From positions 1-64,000 of the IMG/VR virus record IMGVR_UViG_3300050120_000237: a stretch of 64,000 nt of DNA; one strand, 5' to 3'. Position numbers and translations under genes: made by a program. Within the stretch, counting starts at the first letter, position 1. Every line of letters starts with the position of its first letter. The notes under the pieces are model-generated. The model was not told where the DNA came from and did no database searches. It saw only the letters and a list, made by a program, of their open reading frames with translations. The DNA is from a virus. Of this stretch, positions 5,261 to 40,337 are shown in pieces.

Positions 5261-5424
5261 TTCTCGCTGTAATCATCAGAACCGTTGCGGTTGAGGCAAA
5301 CGACCCCTGAATAATTGACCTGCCCAGCATGTGGCTGGGACTTTGGGGCTGGGTTCACATGACGGCCTCCCGGGCTGGGCTCTTTGTTCAGCCCGGGAAT
5401 GCTGCCATCGAAACCGGCGCCAGT

Positions 5425-6060
5425 CTATGCCGCAGCGCGCGGGACGTAGGTGTCGCTGCCCAGCACCAGCACCAGCACCAGCGGGTCGGCGCTGGGGTCG
5501 GGCAAGCGGTAGGTGGCATGACCATTGGTGGCGTTGAGGGTCAGCTTGTCGCCCTGCAGGGTGCGGCCCGGCCCAGTTTTGATGCTGGCGGGGGCCTGCG
5601 CGACGGTCGGCCACGGGGTGGTGACCTGCGCATCATCGAACGACAGGGTGGGCAGGCCGTCGGTCTGGGCTTCGTGGCCGCGCGGCGGGTACTTGTCGGC
5701 GGGATAGCCACGGTCGGTCCACTGTTTCAGGGTCGGGTTGGCCGGCGCCGTGTCGTCGCCCTGACCCTGCTGGTCGCGGTGGCGTTGCAGACTTTGGTCG
5801 GCGTCAACGCCCGGGCGGGTCTTGCCGGCAACGTCGCCCATGGGGGCGGCGGCATTGGTGCCGAACTTCACGTCTTTGCACAGGCTGATGGCGAAGTCGT
5901 CGGCCTGCGCGGCAATCTCGCGGCCCAGTTCACCGACCTCGGTAAGGTCTTTGGCGTTGGCGATCAGGCTGCCGATGCTGCGAAACGTCACCGCAATGCG
6001 GGCTTCGAAGGTGGACTCGGCGATAGCCGCCAGCTTGGTGTCAGCTAATCTACTGGACAT
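5425..6060 (-). CDS. Hypothetical protein, last gene of the accessory block
   Basis: 211 residues, not recognised. The first 70 residues look helical (AAIAESTFEARIAVTFRSIG, then EVGELGREIAAQADDF). The middle is polar and proline-rich, and the C-terminus has a short LVLVLVLG strand before AAA. AAAGGATTTCCC upstream supports the start. It is the last gene before the 5.24 kb terminator. Confidence 0.7.
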   Translation of the reverse strand: MSSRLADTKLAAIAESTFEARIAVTFRSIGSLIANAKDLTEVGELGREIAAQADDFAISLCKDVKFGTNAAAPMGDVAGKTRPGVDADQSLQRHRDQQGQGDDTAPANPTLKQWTDRGYPADKYPPRGHEAQTDGLPTLSFDDAQVTTPWPTVAQAPASIKTGPGRTLQGDKLTLNATNGHATYRLPDPSADPLVLVLVLGSDTYVPRAAA

Positions 6061-6108
6061 GGGAAATCCTTTTGGTTGGGTGTGAAGTGGAAATGTTGCG
6101 GCCCGGGT

Positions 6109-6276
6109 TTAGTTGCCTGACAGGGCGAGGTGGACCAAATCCCGCCCATAAGTCTGGATAAGCCGCGCACGGGACATGCCGCCGCGGTGCAGTTCTTTGA
6201 TGCGAGCCAGCTTGTCGCGCTGGGCGGCAAGGCCCCGCAGGTTGGTGGCTTCCTCGCTTTTTTCGTCGTTCGTCAT
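6109..6276 (-). CDS. Small hypothetical protein
   Basis: 55 residues: an acidic N-terminus, a charged helix (LAAQRDKLARIKELH) and a GMSRARLIQTYG segment resembling a single helix-turn-helix. The ATG overlaps the stop of the preceding gene (ATGA), as in most genes here. Function unknown; the helical pattern would fit a small regulator. Confidence 0.7.
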   Translation of the reverse strand: MTNDEKSEEATNLRGLAAQRDKLARIKELHRGGMSRARLIQTYGRDLVHLALSGN

Positions 6277-6644
6277 AGGTGTTCCCAGTCGAAGCTGCGC
6301 ACCGTGTGGACGCCGGGTTTGAAATTCACCAGCGGCTTGCCGCGCGCAATGAAATGGTCGGCTTCCACCTGCATGCCATAGCTGCGTTCCCAGCCGTCGG
6401 CTTGGTACATGATAAGCCCACGCGCCGCTTCCATCAGCGGCTCGTCGTCGGGCAGCCAAAGATTGTGGTCCAGCGGGTCCAAGTTGCATTCCACCGCGAC
6501 CGGGTGGCTGTGCACGATGGGCGAAAACACCGACAGGCCGGCCTGCAAGAAATACCCGCGCGCGCGCACCGCCATCCAGTAAGCCGCTTCGATGCCTTCC
6601 GCATATTTGGAATACGGCGTGGCGAGATACCAAAAGCCCTTCAT
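6273..6644 (-). CDS. DUF1937-like / nucleoside deoxyribosyltransferase-fold protein
   Basis: 123 residues starting FWYLATPYSKYAEG and containing GLSVFSPIVHSHPVA, MYQADGWERSYGMQ and EADHFIARGKP. This pattern (YLATPYS near the start, FSPI.HSH, then DGWE.S.G...E) is typical of the DUF1937 family, related in fold to nucleoside 2-deoxyribosyltransferases. A role in nucleotide salvage or base exchange is plausible but not shown. Overlaps both neighbours by 4 bases. Confidence 0.8.
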   Translation of the reverse strand: MKGFWYLATPYSKYAEGIEAAYWMAVRARGYFLQAGLSVFSPIVHSHPVAVECNLDPLDHNLWLPDDEPLMEAARGLIMYQADGWERSYGMQVEADHFIARGKPLVNFKPGVHTVRSFDWEHL

Positions 6645-7909
6645 GCTTCGGCCTTTTTCTTTTTGGCCAAGCGTTCGGCCTTGATTTCCTCGAACGTGCG
6701 CCCGTCACCGTCCAGCGTGGCTTTCAGCCCGGTGTGCAATTCCCAGCGCCCGACCGTGACGTCGGTATATCCCGGCGTAAGTTCGCTGCCGAAATAGGTC
6801 CGGTCGGTAAGTTCGCAGGCCAGCATGGTGGATCCCGAACCGTTGAACGGGTCGCACACCGTCTTGGCCATGTCGGTTACCTCGATAACCTTCACCAGCA
6901 ATTCCACCGGCTTTTCCGTGGCGTGGTTTATGTTGCCGCTGCGCTTGCACCTGATCACGTTGCCCTGCGCCTTTTTGGGGTCGAAAGGCGACTTCACCGC
7001 GATGCCGCACATAATCAGTTCGTGCTGCATGCGCCAGCCGGCGCCCATGCCGGGGGTTTCCTTGTCCCACACGATCATGTTGCGCACGCCATAGCCGCTG
7101 CTTTCGATCACGTCGAACAGGGTCAGCCACATGCGCCAGTCGGTGAAGGCATAGACGACGCCAGCGCCGATGGTGGGAATAACGGATTTCATCAGCGCGC
7201 TATAGCCGCGCGACGACAGGGTATCGTTGGCGACCATTTCGCTGCCGCGCGTGCCGACGCTGCCGGCACCTTTGCCTGCTTCCTGAAAGCCGCCGCTGCA
7301 ATACGGCGGGTCGGTCAGCACCATGTCGATGCCGGTGCCGTTGAACAGCTTGGCCATGCTTGCCTGGTCTGAACTGTCGCCGCAAATCAGGCGGTGACGG
7401 CCCAGCAGCCACAGGTCGCCGCGCTTGGAAATCGGGTTCTTGGGGATTTGCTGCGCCGGCTCGGGAAGGCGGCGGGTGTCTTCCTCTTTCACGAAGCCCT
7501 GCACCTGCAGGTCGCCAAGTTCGCCAAGGTCGAAACCAAGGCTGCCAAGGTCGATGCCGCTGTTGTGCAGTTCGCCCAGTTCGGCGCGCAGCAGTTCTTC
7601 GTTCCAGCCGGCATTCAGCGCAATGCGATTGTCGGCAATCGCCAGCTTGCGCCACTGTTCAGCGGATAGGCCCACCTTGGTGATGGTGTGTATCTCTGAC
7701 CAGCCCAGCAGCAGCACCGCAGCGAGTCTGCCGTTGCCGACCCGCACCGTGTCGGTGGCGTCCAGCAGGATTGGGCCTGTCAAACCGCTTTCGGCGATCG
7801 AGGCGCGCAGCTGTTCGACCTGTTCTGGCGAATGCGTGCGCATGTTCTTGGGGTCGGGTTTGAGGTCTGCCGGGTTGCGGTAGACGATTTCTAGACGGTC
7901 GGCGGTCAT
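6641..7909 (-). CDS. ParB-domain DNA methyltransferase (beta class, N4/N6)
   Basis: 422 residues. An N-terminal ParB/sulfiredoxin-like domain (about 8-110; DLKPDPKNMRTHS, then VRVGNGRLAAVLLLG) is fused to a DNA methyltransferase with motif IV VLTDPPY and, later, motif I DPFNGSGSTMLACE. This motif order (IV before I) defines the beta class, which includes CcrM. Such fusions are common in phages. The ParB domain may use nucleotides or guide DNA binding. It probably protects phage DNA from restriction or adjusts host methylation. The ATG at 7909 overlaps the preceding stop; a longer upstream frame exists but has no support. Confidence 0.92.
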   Translation of the reverse strand: MTADRLEIVYRNPADLKPDPKNMRTHSPEQVEQLRASIAESGLTGPILLDATDTVRVGNGRLAAVLLLGWSEIHTITKVGLSAEQWRKLAIADNRIALNAGWNEELLRAELGELHNSGIDLGSLGFDLGELGDLQVQGFVKEEDTRRLPEPAQQIPKNPISKRGDLWLLGRHRLICGDSSDQASMAKLFNGTGIDMVLTDPPYCSGGFQEAGKGAGSVGTRGSEMVANDTLSSRGYSALMKSVIPTIGAGVVYAFTDWRMWLTLFDVIESSGYGVRNMIVWDKETPGMGAGWRMQHELIMCGIAVKSPFDPKKAQGNVIRCKRSGNINHATEKPVELLVKVIEVTDMAKTVCDPFNGSGSTMLACELTDRTYFGSELTPGYTDVTVGRWELHTGLKATLDGDGRTFEEIKAERLAKKKKAEA

Positions 7910-26998: not shown

Positions 26999-27664
26999 CT
27001 AGTTGGGCTTCTGCACTTCGGTATCGGCAGTCTCGCCGGGCAGCTTGTCGTCCGGCCACACGTCCTGCGCGGTCGGCTCGGGCTTCTGTTCTTCGGCGGC
27101 CGGCGTGTCGGTGCCGTCTTCCGGGCCCAGCGCCGCATCGACCTGTTCATTGGTCTGGCCAAGGTGTTCGCCCGTTGCGTGCGCATGCCCGCGCGCCCAA
27201 CGCTTGTGCGGCTTTGAACCAGGCGGATAAGGGTTGGGGCGCGTGTGCCCACCCTTCGCTGTTTCATAGCCGGCGCGATAAGCCTGTTCGTCGGGCGTGC
27301 CCTTCGCGGTGTCGAAAATCATAAGCTGGAACGGCTGCCCCTGTTCCTTCATGTGTTCGATAAGCTGCGCATAGAAGTTGCGCATCACCATGGGGTCTTT
27401 CTTCGACTTGGACATGGCCATGCGAATGGCGGCGGTATCAATGCCGCATTCTTCCGCCTGCTTGTACGCATTGCGCAGGTGGCCGGACGCTTCGTCCATC
27501 TTGGCCTTGTAGCCCATGATGGTGTTGTAGTGGTGTTTTAGGTCTTTGGGCTGGGGCAGATTGAGGCGCGGGGCCTCGCCTGCGGCAGCAGCTTGCATGT
27601 CCTTTGTGGATTTGGCGTCGCGGTCGGCTTTTTTCTTCCCGCGCTGCCCGTTTACTTTTGCCAT
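26999..27664 (-). CDS. Protein with GapR-like helical core and RMF-like motif
   Basis: 221 residues from the ATG at 27664, with GGAGAG upstream. A Lys-rich N-terminus, then a helical region (GHLRNAYKQAEECGIDTAAIRMAMSKSKKDP) reminiscent of the DUF2312/GapR pattern. Next comes EQAYRAGYETAKGGHTRPNP and PHKRWARGHA, the A..G..A..G....NP...W..G signature of ribosome modulation factor (Rmf/CrpP) domains, then an acidic disordered tail. RMF dimerises ribosomes; phage versions may target translation. Both likenesses are weak individually. Confidence 0.6.
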   Translation of the reverse strand: MAKVNGQRGKKKADRDAKSTKDMQAAAAGEAPRLNLPQPKDLKHHYNTIMGYKAKMDEASGHLRNAYKQAEECGIDTAAIRMAMSKSKKDPMVMRNFYAQLIEHMKEQGQPFQLMIFDTAKGTPDEQAYRAGYETAKGGHTRPNPYPPGSKPHKRWARGHAHATGEHLGQTNEQVDAALGPEDGTDTPAAEEQKPEPTAQDVWPDDKLPGETADTEVQKPN

Positions 27665-27713
27665 GAACTCTCTCCGGGTTGGTGTTTTCACCTCTCCCGA
27701 AGGCACCCCAAAT

Positions 27714-36694: not shown

Positions 36695-36900
36695 AAGCCA
36701 AGCCCACACACCGCGCCATCACCAACGCAAAGCTGGCGGTGCTGCGGGAAGCAAAGGCCCGCATTGGGCGCATTCCATCACTTCGGTTTCCGACCAGGCG
36801 GCTGGACGAAGCGGCATGCGCCCAGAACGGCATGAACTACAGGGCACGCAAGGTGCTGCTGGAAATGATCGAAGAACTAGAGCGGGGAACGAAGCAGTGA
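36691..36900 (+). CDS. Small basic protein
   Basis: 69 residues: KPTHRAITNAKLAVLREAKARIG, then FPTRRLDEAACAQNGMNYRARKVLLEMIEELERG. Helical and basic. Overlaps both neighbours; immediately precedes the HerA-like ATPase gene. Confidence 0.65.
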   Translation: MKAKPTHRAITNAKLAVLREAKARIGRIPSLRFPTRRLDEAACAQNGMNYRARKVLLEMIEELERGTKQ

Positions 36901-38606
36901 ACAAATCCATGGTGCTGGGCACCACCAGCTTGAAGCAGGAAATCACCTTGGACGTGGAAGCCCTAATCGGCTCCCACCTGCTTATTCAGGCCAATGCCGG
37001 CGGTGGCAAAAGCCGGACCATTCGCAAGATTATGGAGATTGCGGACGGGAAGGCGCAGCGCATAATTCTGGACGTGGAAGACGAATTCCACACCCTGCGC
37101 GAAATCTCCCCGGGCATGGTGGTGCTGGGCCCCGAGGGCGACGCGCCCGCCAATCTGGCAAACGCCGCGATGCTGCCGAACTTCCTTCTGGAAACCGGGC
37201 TGGATGCGGTGTTGCAAATAAACCAGCTTGGCCTTGAAGGGCGGCGCGAGTTTATCGCCCGGTTCCTTCACGCCCTCATAGGCGCCCCACGGCACCTGTG
37301 GCACCCGGCGCTGGTGGTGCTGGACGAAACCCACCGCTATGCCCCGCAGGCCGGCAAGGAAGTCAGCAGCGACCCCGTGGCGGCGCTGGCATCGGAAGGG
37401 CGCAAGCGTGGGTTCACCGCCATATTTGCCACCCAGCGCATGGCAAAAATCGACAAGGACGCCACTGGTGACGTGAATAACTGGCTGATGGGACGCGCCG
37501 GGCAATCCACCGACCGCGACCGCTGCGCCGACGAACTGGGCCTGAAAAAGACCAGCCCGGAAATGCGCGCGCTGGGAAAGCTGAACCCCGGTAACTTCTG
37601 GGTGATCGGCCCGGCCCTGACAGCCGAAGCCACGCTGGTGCACGTCGGCAATGTCCAATCCACCCACCTGCGCAGCGGTCAGCGCGGCGTGCCGGTGCCG
37701 CCCGGCGACAAGGCCCTCAAAGCCATGATGGCCAAGCTGCATGTGGAAGAACCGAAGCCGGCGCCGGCCACGTCACTTTCTGCCCCCACGAACGTGACCC
37801 CGGAAAGTTACGCGGCGTCCAAGGACGACCTCGCGGCAGAATACCGGCGCGGCTATGGCGAAGGCGACGCGGCGGGTTTTTCGCGCGCGGTCGCCATCAT
37901 CGAAACAAACCGAGCCGGGGCGTTGCGCGCGTTGGCAGCCCAGCAGAGCAACGCCACCGCCGCCCTAGAATACATGCAGGACTTGACCATAGACCTGCAG
38001 AACGCCGCGCCGGCATCCCTGCCGGCGCCTGCGCCCAAGATTGCCCCCGTGGCGGAAGGGAATACGCGCCCGGTTTTAAAGCCGAATGGTGGGAGTGCTG
38101 GTTCAAGTCCAGCCGGGGGCACCAAGCAGCCTGTGGAACAGCGCGTGTTGAACGCTCTTGCGGAATTGGAGGCGATGAAAGTCACCGCCCCCACCCGTGA
38201 AATCGTGGCTTTCATGTGCGATTATTCCAACACCACCAGCACCGGCTTTGCCCGCGCCATGGCGGCGCTGAACAAGGACGGGCTTGTTTCCGCCGGTGGT
38301 GGGCAGCTTATGCTGACCGATGCCGGCAGGCGCCGGGCGCAGCCCCCGCCCAAACGCACCCCGACAGAACTTCGCGCCAGGATCGTCGAAATGATCGGTG
38401 GAAAGGCCGGGCAGGTCATGGGCGCGTTGGTGAAATCCTATCCGCAGGCCGTCACGCGCGAGGCATTGGCGGCGGCCGCTGGATACACCAACACCACCAG
38501 CACGGGATTTGCGCAGGCGATGGCGAAGCTGTCGGCGCTCAATTTCGTGGAATATCCAGAAAAGGGGCAGGTTGTCGCCGCGCGCCTTCTGTTTCAGGGG
38601 GCATAG
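36897..38606 (+). CDS. HerA/FtsK-like ATPase with two winged-helix repeats (GTG start)
   Basis: 569 residues. ATPase part: Walker A NAGGGKSR (about 33-40), Walker B ALVVLDETHRY (about 138-147), DPVAALASEGRKRGFTAIFATQR (sensor/arginine region), as in HerA-type hexameric pumps. C-terminal part: two tandem winged-helix domains sharing NTTSTGFA.AMA.L (about 444 and 530). Between them and the ATPase is a low-complexity linker whose DNA (38043-38124, residues about 383-410) is a tRNA-like sequence. HerA proteins resect DNA ends with NurA; no NurA was recognised here. GTGA overlap at the start. Confidence 0.85.
   Translation: MNKSMVLGTTSLKQEITLDVEALIGSHLLIQANAGGGKSRTIRKIMEIADGKAQRIILDVEDEFHTLREISPGMVVLGPEGDAPANLANAAMLPNFLLETGLDAVLQINQLGLEGRREFIARFLHALIGAPRHLWHPALVVLDETHRYAPQAGKEVSSDPVAALASEGRKRGFTAIFATQRMAKIDKDATGDVNNWLMGRAGQSTDRDRCADELGLKKTSPEMRALGKLNPGNFWVIGPALTAEATLVHVGNVQSTHLRSGQRGVPVPPGDKALKAMMAKLHVEEPKPAPATSLSAPTNVTPESYAASKDDLAAEYRRGYGEGDAAGFSRAVAIIETNRAGALRALAAQQSNATAALEYMQDLTIDLQNAAPASLPAPAPKIAPVAEGNTRPVLKPNGGSAGSSPAGGTKQPVEQRVLNALAELEAMKVTAPTREIVAFMCDYSNTTSTGFARAMAALNKDGLVSAGGGQLMLTDAGRRRAQPPPKRTPTELRARIVEMIGGKAGQVMGALVKSYPQAVTREALAAAAGYTNTTSTGFAQAMAKLSALNFVEYPEKGQVVAARLLFQGA
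38043..38124 (+). tRNA. tRNA-Leu-like gene embedded in the ATPase coding sequence
   Basis: 82 bases. Acceptor stem GCCCCCG (38043-38049) pairs perfectly with CGGGGGC (38114-38120), then A and encoded CCA. D-arm region TGGCGGAA with GCG/CGC stem (38052-38054 / 38065-38067) and GG in the loop, typical of tRNA-Leu. T-arm GCTGG-TTCAAGT-CCAGC is perfect. The anticodon arm is degenerate: three pairs around an 8-base loop TTTTAAAG (anticodon TAA or TTA), and the variable arm is only about 11 bases. The sequence is tRNA-derived beyond reasonable doubt; whether it works is uncertain. Confidence 0.6.
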
Positions 38607-39560
38607 ATGGGCGCTACCACCATCGAATGGACGAAGTACGTTTGGCCAATCGTGCAGGGGTGCGATCTGGTCAGCCCGGGCTGCACCAATTGCTATGCCG
38701 TGCCGCTGCTGTGGCGCTTGCAGCACAACCCGCTGGCCAAGGTCAGCGACCCCATAGCCGGGCTGGTGACCAAGAACAAATACGGCAAGCTGCATTTCAC
38801 CGGCAAAGTTGCGTTGCGCCATGATCGGCTGGAAGACCCGCTGAAATGGAAGACGCCGCGGCGCATTTTCGTGCCCAGCCATGGCGACATTTTCCACAAA
38901 TATGTGCCGTTCGACTTTCTGGACCGCATCTTTCTGACCATGGCCTATGCCCGCCGCCATACCTTTCAGGTTCTGACAAAGCGCGGCGACCGCATGCAGC
39001 GCTATATAACGGATCCCGAGACACCAAACCGCATCAACGCGCTGTTGCGCGCGGAAACCGCGCCTTATGTGAATTGGCAGCTGAAAACTTGGCCGCTGCC
39101 GAACGTGTGGCTGGGCATCAGCGCCGAAGACCAGACCCGCCTGACCGAACGGTGGCAGTTCCTGCGCGACACGCCGGCCGCGCTGCGCTTCCTGTCCTAT
39201 GAACCGGCGCTTGAAGCCATAGACCTGACCGCGATCTGCAACGGCTGGCACTTCGAAGACGCGCTGGCGGGCGTGCGCTATCACGACACGCCAGCCGGCG
39301 GCGGCGGCGCGACGATGAAAATCCCAAAGCTGGACTGGGGTATTGGCGGGCTGGAAAGCGGCAACAAGGCGCGCGAAGGAAACGTGCGCTGGCTGCACAG
39401 CTTCAAGAACCAGTTCCAGCGTGCCGGCGTGCCGGTATTCATCAAGCAGTTGGGCCGCAGGCCGATGCTGGACACTGAGCCCATGGTTTTGAAGGACCGC
39501 AAGGGGGGCGACCCGGAAGAGTGGCCAATAGATTTGCGGGTCAGGCAATTTCCGACATGA
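38607..39560 (+). CDS. DUF5131 (Gp37/Gp68-like) protein
   Basis: 317 residues: TTIEWTKYVWPIVQGCDLVSPGCTNCYA near the start (split Cys triad GC....PGC.NCYA), RRIFVPSHGDIFHKYVPFDFLDRIF, HTFQVLTKRGDRMQRY, NVWLGISAEDQ, RFLSYEPALEAIDL, and DWGIGGLESG. This is the DUF5131 family, widespread in phages, with a Cys cluster suggesting an iron-sulfur or radical-SAM-like centre. The biochemical role is not established. Starts immediately after the ATPase stop. Confidence 0.9.
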   Translation: MGATTIEWTKYVWPIVQGCDLVSPGCTNCYAVPLLWRLQHNPLAKVSDPIAGLVTKNKYGKLHFTGKVALRHDRLEDPLKWKTPRRIFVPSHGDIFHKYVPFDFLDRIFLTMAYARRHTFQVLTKRGDRMQRYITDPETPNRINALLRAETAPYVNWQLKTWPLPNVWLGISAEDQTRLTERWQFLRDTPAALRFLSYEPALEAIDLTAICNGWHFEDALAGVRYHDTPAGGGGATMKIPKLDWGIGGLESGNKAREGNVRWLHSFKNQFQRAGVPVFIKQLGRRPMLDTEPMVLKDRKGGDPEEWPIDLRVRQFPT

Positions 39561-40072
39561 TCGAAGAATGGCGTCCAGTCGTCGGCTATCCCGACCACTA
39601 CGAAATTTCTAGCATGGGCCGAGTTCGTCGCATCTTGGCTTGCCGTGGCGCTACCGCAGGAAGAATTTTGCGCCAAGTAAACGGCGACGGCTATCGGTAT
39701 GTGCACCTGTATCGGAACGACAAAAAGCGCAAGGTTGGCGTGCACATTCTGGTCGCAGAAGCATTCCACGGGAAGCGCCCGCGCGGAAAACTGCCAAACC
39801 ATATGGACCTGTGCCGCTCGAATAACAGCGCCAAAAATTTGGAATGGCTTACCCAGCGCCAGAATGTCATGCACGCGATTTCGGCAGGAAGGCATGGCGG
39901 GCGCCCATTGCCAGGCATGCAGAACGGGCGCGCGAAACTCACTGCTGCGCAGGTCGCTGCAATCAAAGCGCAGAAAGGAAAGGTGGGTCAGCGCACCTTG
40001 GCCAGCCTTTGTGGTGTGTCGAAGACCTGCATCCAGCTAATACACCAAGGCAAGAATTGGACCCGGGATTGA
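39557..40072 (+). CDS. NUMOD4-HNH homing endonuclease
   Basis: 171 residues from the ATG at 39557 (ATGA overlap). NUMOD4 domain EEWRPVVGYPDHYEISSMGRVRR (about 3-25), HNH domain (HILVAEAFHGKRP, NHMDLCRSNNSAKNLEWLTQ, NVMHA), then a C-terminal helix-turn-helix (LTAAQVAAIKAQKGK...LASLCGVSKTCIQLI) for target recognition. A selfish endonuclease typical of phage genomes. Confidence 0.93.
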   Translation: MIEEWRPVVGYPDHYEISSMGRVRRILACRGATAGRILRQVNGDGYRYVHLYRNDKKRKVGVHILVAEAFHGKRPRGKLPNHMDLCRSNNSAKNLEWLTQRQNVMHAISAGRHGGRPLPGMQNGRAKLTAAQVAAIKAQKGKVGQRTLASLCGVSKTCIQLIHQGKNWTRD

Positions 40073-40133: not shown

Positions 40134-40337
40134 ATGTCCGCCATCAAAGGCACCGTCAAGTTTTTCAATGAAGACAAGGGTTTTGGCTTCATTGTGCGCG
40201 ACGATAAGGAAAAAGACGTGTTCGTTCACAAGACGGGAATCGCCGACGGCGGCACCTTGAAGGAAGGCCAGAAGGTTTCTTTCAGCGTCGTGAGCGACAA
40301 GCGCGGCGCCAAGGCGGAAGACGTTCGCCCCGCCTAA
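40134..40337 (+). CDS. Cold-shock protein
   Basis: 67 residues, a single [22 protein letters not shown] (RNP1 KGFGFI) and [10 protein letters not shown] (RNP2 VFVH), ending [14 protein letters not shown]. CspA-type proteins melt RNA secondary structure and can act as antiterminators. GAGGG precedes the ATG. It has a 60-base leader of its own and closes the early block. Confidence 0.95.

Follow-up and report, generated by a model that had tools for sequence, protein, structure and literature searches.

A tRNA-Leu-like sequence in frame within the predicted disordered linker of a HerA-type ATPase gene in a metagenomic virus record

Introduction

The palindromic elements of Rickettsia (RPEs) are in-frame insertions within protein genes that are translated together with their hosts (PMC10969869), and the locus described here resembles them in that a non-native element lies in frame inside a protein-coding gene and is translated as extra residues. 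RPEs, however, are repeated mobile elements of ~150 bp, whereas the present element is single-copy and tRNA-derived, with no sign of a family: RPE-like multiplicity was absent, the virus record having one tRNA-like match and the ATPase linkers of 90 relatives none. Integrases of the SSV1 type offer a second parallel, a gene containing a tRNA-type integration site, which in SSV1 is the 3' half of a tRNA-Arg. The SSV1-type integrase gene itself holds the site of recombination, and in archaea the majority of integration sites fall within tRNA genes (PMC8371274). There the tRNA is partial, has a known role in recombination, and sits in an integrase gene, whereas here a whole tRNA sits in an ATPase gene, in a record without an integrase.

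The acceptor stem, D-arm length, T stem, and CCA of the element are shared with phage and alphaproteobacterial tRNA-Leu(UAA/CAA), as represented by the tRNA of IMG/VR contigs L278-L281; unlike these, the copy described here has degraded anticodon and variable arms and is embedded, in frame, within a conserved gene. The known targets of RNase P, in turn, include tRNA-like structures of mRNAs and of phage RNAs (PMC11143913). Such substrates (C4, M3, and operon mRNAs) have in common with our element the recognition elements, namely an acceptor-T stack with RCCA, but are placed between cistrons, whereas the present element is inside one cistron. A limited literature search found no description of a conserved phage protein gene that contains an entire tRNA on its sense strand.

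Results

A tRNA-Leu-like sequence in a virus record with no other tRNA gene. The window, that is, the whole stretch of DNA analyzed, comprises bases 1-64000 of the 65,835-bp IMG/VR virus record IMGVR_UViG_3300050120_000237 and encodes a large terminase, a major capsid protein, tail proteins, and RecE/RecT-like recombination proteins. All features of the ATPase gene and of the tRNA-like sequence given below are on the plus strand. Searches of IMG/VR with the ATPase, the downstream gene, and the capsid protein revealed no close relatives of this phage, nor were any found in phage records, and a plasmid search yielded no relative closer than 44%.

ARAGORN predicted one gene in the window, at 38043-38124 on the plus strand, with the type call '?(Stop|Leu)(ta)', and no second tRNA gene was detected in the record. 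The same 82 nt scored 43.5 bits against Rfam RF00005 (gathering score of 29), the sole Rfam match in the 64 kb, with an E value of 1.6e-9 when the RF00005 model alone was run on the 65,835-bp record. An independent covariance model, constructed from 22 genuine alphaproteobacterial and phage tRNA-Leu genes with the window left out, gave 65.9 bits (E value of 3.8e-13). Across phage loci, genuine tRNA-Leu mostly scored 66-101 bits under this model and other tRNA types mostly below ~62 bits; one further match, in L145, was borderline at 66 bits. By these scores the sequence at 38043-38124 is a tRNA-Leu sequence at the weak end of the genuine range, and the two covariance models rule out a chance resemblance to tRNA. 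The sequence-only reading, which had proposed a tRNA-Leu-like gene within an open coding frame at these positions and had called for a covariance score above background, is thus borne out by ARAGORN, RF00005, and the tRNA-Leu model.

Intact acceptor, D, and T stems beside degraded anticodon and variable arms. The acceptor stem is formed by GCCCCCG (38043-38049) and CGGGGGC (38114-38120) with 7/7 pairs, and the T arm, GCTGG-TTCAAGT-CCAGC (38097-38113), by 5/5 pairs, all of them Watson-Crick, in agreement with the perfect stems, T loop, and encoded CCA that had been noted from the letters. The D arm GCGGAAGGGAATACGC (38052-38067) has a 3-bp stem (GCG/CGC, 3/3 pairs) and GG in its loop, and a D arm of equal length, with GGAATACGC, is found in the phage tRNA-Leu of L167. 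A discriminator A and encoded CCA, which together make up an RCCA motif, follow at 38121-38124. Conserved tRNA positions were present as well (U8, A14, A15, GG, the T loop, and A73).

The anticodon arm, CCCGG-TTTTAAAG-CCGAA (38069-38086), is degraded. It can be read as an 8-base loop on a 3-bp stem or as a 6-base loop on 4 bp that include one G-U; in the standard 7-base-loop register three pairs are non-standard, and the 7- and 8-base registers carry two to three mismatches in the stem. The arm described earlier, with 8 loop bases and a weak stem, corresponds to the 3-bp form, and its reading as defective is supported. Class II tRNAs are expected to have a variable region with a stem; here the variable region TGGTGGGAGT (38087-38096), as delimited by alignment to a tRNA-Leu consensus, is shortened and has no clear stem. 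With respect to RF00005, the sequence thus passes the family cut-off and has the acceptor, D, and T stems, T loop, and CCA, while lacking the 5-pair anticodon stem and 7-base loop; with respect to a functional tRNA-Leu, it has the profile match and A73 and lacks the long variable arm with a stem.

Folding with the acceptor and T stems forced gave -33.6 kcal/mol, compared with an unconstrained minimum of -34.1. A gap that large was seen in 47% of 51 genuine tRNA-Leu and is ordinary for this tRNA. The free folding energy itself was uninformative (z of -0.72).

The tRNA-like sequence encodes part of a disordered linker. The gene that contains the tRNA-like sequence runs open from a GTG at 36897 to 38606 in the same sense as the tRNA and encodes a HerA/DUF87-type ATPase of 569 aa with a coiled coil, a flexible linker, and two C-terminal winged-helix domains. 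HerA/DUF87 membership was indicated by a Pfam DUF87 (PF01935) match of 6e-9, by a P-loop (GGGKS) and a Walker B motif (LDETH), and by the best PDB folds, which were HerA translocases. The AlphaFold model, built from 65 relatives, had a mean pLDDT of 86.6 and comprised the ATPase domain, a long helix (residues 325-367), a low-confidence segment (371-407), and the two winged-helix domains. This segment, at 38007-38117, has pLDDT values of <50 and is predicted to be a disordered linker; the winged-helix domains (~residues 413-480 and 489-569; 38133-38603) were defined by AlphaFold secondary structure and are present in the relatives aligned in full. The tRNA-like sequence encodes residues 383-409 (APVAEGNTRPVLKPNGGSAGSSPAGGT), all within the low-confidence linker except the last two. 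AlphaFold and Pfam accordingly agree with the earlier proposal that it codes for the linker joining a HerA-like ATPase domain to two winged-helix domains.

Among 735 unique tRNAs in the sampled loci, 21 had a stop-free sense frame of at least 50 codons on both sides, a count of frames alone, irrespective of homology-supported ORFs, in which several of the other long-frame tRNAs sit in tRNA-rich loci. The window tRNA had the largest two-side minimum of the 735 (500 and 159 codons within its locus). In two further loci (L130 and L133), cellular tRNA-Leu(CAA) genes were observed with a stop-free sense frame extending ~500 codons further downstream, to the end of the locus.

Relatives share the ATPase layout and lack the tRNA. 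We identified ~90 diverse relatives of the ATPase on viral and bacterial contigs, with 28-42% identity over the 65 that were aligned. The arrangement of ATPase, variable linker, and two winged helices is common to the aligned relatives, whose linker residues are different and hypervariable, and a tRNA match was detected in none of the 90 ATPase linkers. Comparison of homologous ATPase genes, as suggested from the sequence alone, hence recovered the linker and not the tRNA. This outcome argues against the idea that a tRNA gene lay between two genes that later fused: since the relatives show the fused layout to be ancestral and have it without a tRNA, a fusion around the tRNA is ruled out, and the other origin considered at the time, an insertion exapted as a linker, fits. 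Relatives encoding the same linker residues in DNA without the tRNA pairing would have weakened the tRNA assignment; such a comparison does not apply cleanly, the residues themselves being different.

Between fixed points, the linker measures 154 residues in the window, tRNA included; the relatives have 124-202, with a median of 164. Because the tRNA-bearing linker is slightly shorter than this median, an insertion and a replacement of linker DNA fit equally well. With no empty-site sequence and the nearest ATPase relatives only 42% identical, the entry event can be neither dated nor reconstructed. L006, one of the two closest ATPase relatives, belongs to a phage in which another stretch (L109 in G004, contig positions 7604-10683) holds an array of at least 13 tRNA genes, including three for tRNA-Leu.

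Foreign codon usage and the likely kind of donor. The codons of the tRNA-like sequence have a log-CAI of -1.00, compared with a mean of -0.39 (SD, 0.17), which places them in the lowest 0.4% of the phage's 27-codon windows. This is the most atypical stretch of the ATPase gene, with sharp edges at ~38031 and ~38112. It includes a TTA codon, a triplet that accounts for 7 of the 1,211 Leu codons across the remaining predicted genes of the phage.

The nearest tRNA found was the tRNA-Leu(UAA) of L278-L281, identical at 53/58 positions outside the anticodon and variable region, and full-length matches in alphaproteobacterial genomes reached 72-74%. An identical donor tRNA was not recovered by IMG/VR patterns or in 142 genomes of the class and 299 of the phylum of a Mesorhizobium. 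Placed in the ATPase frame, a tRNA of the L278 type has TAA as its codon 12 and closes the frame; at that point the window reads GTT TTA AAG. With one base more in its anticodon loop, the window has UAA out of phase with the reading frame of the ATPase, in which a normal 7-base loop would give a stop, and this suggests that the anticodon loop may have been altered by selection for an open reading frame. A parent of the other type would need no loop change, as this frame is often free of stops in tRNA-Leu(CAA) genes (34/53). We also considered the D-loop change as the removal of a stop, a view weakened by the natural occurrence of GGAATACGC D loops in phage tRNA-Leu (L167). Two pairs of 5-bp direct repeats were noted, CCAAG (38035/38122, spacing of 87) and GCCTG (38027/38129, spacing of 102), and both fit the frame; being only 5 bp long and compatible with chance, they were not accepted as a target-site duplication.

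Discussion

We favor, as a reasonably probable account, the entry of a tRNA-Leu by illegitimate recombination into the linker of a pre-existing ATPase gene and its retention in frame as 27 linker residues. The parent would have been a tRNA-Leu gene of the UAA or CAA type and of an alphaproteobacterial or alphaproteobacterial-phage kind, which recombination, perhaps tied to an integration site, would have brought into the hypervariable, disordered linker of a HerA-like ATPase gene that already existed. Its anticodon and variable arms may have been lost or altered while adapting to, or drifting under, protein coding, and the sequence would have been kept, in frame, as linker peptide. The observations in support are the tRNA homology, the in-frame position, the disordered linker, the absence from relatives, and the foreign codon usage. 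The tRNA-like sequence is most likely now mainly protein-coding and as a decoding tRNA is probably dead, decoding being unlikely given the damaged anticodon stem, the absent variable stem, and the little use for UUA. A counterpoint to this account is that the damage is confined to the anticodon and variable region, with 15 stem pairs elsewhere intact, a pattern that pure drift from a normal parent tRNA would not predict.

That pattern is, on the other hand, what would be predicted if the tRNA-like fold in the ATPase mRNA were a substrate of RNase P, with 3' tRNA trimming, and cleavage served to part the ATPase from the winged-helix coding or to limit the message, because such an element needs no decoding and its anticodon and variable arms would be free to decay. 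The part recognized by RNase P is the acceptor/T minihelix with RCCA, which, along with the D stem, is the best preserved here, and forcing the cloverleaf costs no more than 0.5 kcal/mol relative to the minimum. Against this, translating ribosomes would unfold the structure, a single sequence offers no covariation, and no internal start with a convincing ribosome-binding site was seen for the winged-helix part; the ATG at 38175, with GGAGG just 2 nt upstream, is located within the first winged-helix region. We regard such a processing element as quite unlikely. A working tRNA, with one strand in dual use, would be charged with Leu and decode UUA or else, by way of its odd loop, suppress ochre codons or shift the reading frame. 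It would be consistent with a bit score like those of genuine, if weak, phage tRNAs, with the retained conserved positions, and with an ungapped 7-base register in which the anticodon would be UUA, which reads UAA. Given the two to three mismatches of the anticodon stem in the 7- and 8-base registers, the missing class II variable stem, the scarcity of TTA codons, the lack of another tRNA gene in the record, the ordinary stops used by the window genes, and the absence of a promoter-like site in 37800-38350, we find it decidedly improbable. Dual protein/tRNA use is unproven, since the anticodon and variable arms are damaged and the one additional loop base is what an open frame would need. It appears unlikely that one strand provides both linker codons and a tRNA-like RNA cut from, or directing the cutting of, its own messenger, in which case protein and RNA would be mutually exclusive.

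How the tRNA might have reached the ATPase gene is addressed by a special case of the favored account, in which an attachment-site tRNA beside a tRNA-using tyrosine integrase was captured or mis-recombined and ended in the ATPase gene. We hold this rather unlikely, and as it merely names the entry mechanism its likelihood does not add to that of the general account. In two of the closest relatives (L005 and L008), a host-type tRNA (Val and Ala, respectively) abuts an integrase-type ORF ~2 kb downstream of the ATPase and near the contig end, as expected of a prophage attachment site, and in L006 an integrase match is 3.3 kb from the ATPase. The L005 ORF, however, has no Pfam match and was judged to be integrase-type by eye. 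A Pfam integrase match lay within 5 kb of the ATPase in 8 of the 14 relatives having such a match, yet on contigs this short, chance alone would give ~5/14 (the per-contig chances summed). Moreover, the phage attachment site usually corresponds to the 3' part of a tRNA only, whereas the window tRNA is complete, and searches for PF00589 and PF00239 matched neither an integrase nor a resolvase in the record, which may be incomplete. That an attachment-site tRNA was captured is thus offered as a lead only. The sequence comes from a single metagenomic record and a second copy was not seen, as would also be the case if a tRNA-bearing read had been misjoined into the ATPase gene during assembly. Such an artifact is very improbable, as the frame is exact at both joints, a single conserved family accounts for both the N- and the C-terminal half, and the linker is no shorter or longer than the family range allows.

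If the tRNA-like sequence is only a relic, it represents a clear case in which a non-coding RNA gene has become protein sequence within a conserved phage gene and shows that disordered linkers are able to absorb foreign DNA. If its RNA is still processed, the same bases would have two conflicting uses, translation and tRNA-like folding, and would form a compact switch.

Several other genes were also recorded. A NUMOD4/HNH_3 homing-type endonuclease is encoded at 39521-40072, ~1.4 kb downstream of the tRNA-like sequence, and could possibly have aided in moving DNA to that site. It is followed at 40134-40337 by a phage-encoded cold-shock domain protein (PF00313, 2e-22), and a protein at 26999-27706 has a weak match to ribosome modulation factor (RMF; 7e-4, below the Pfam cut-off). 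At least four DNA methyltransferase-type genes are present in this phage (6641-8356, 20971-21702, 25562-26494, and 63143-63964), one of them fused to a ParB-like domain. At the prophage end in the relative L005, the integrase-type ORF (5307-6968), which has no Pfam integrase match and in which tyrosine-recombinase-like motifs were recognized by eye, runs into the antisense strand of the tRNA-Val (6911-6987), so that the tRNA gene supplies the codons for the final residues of the ORF.
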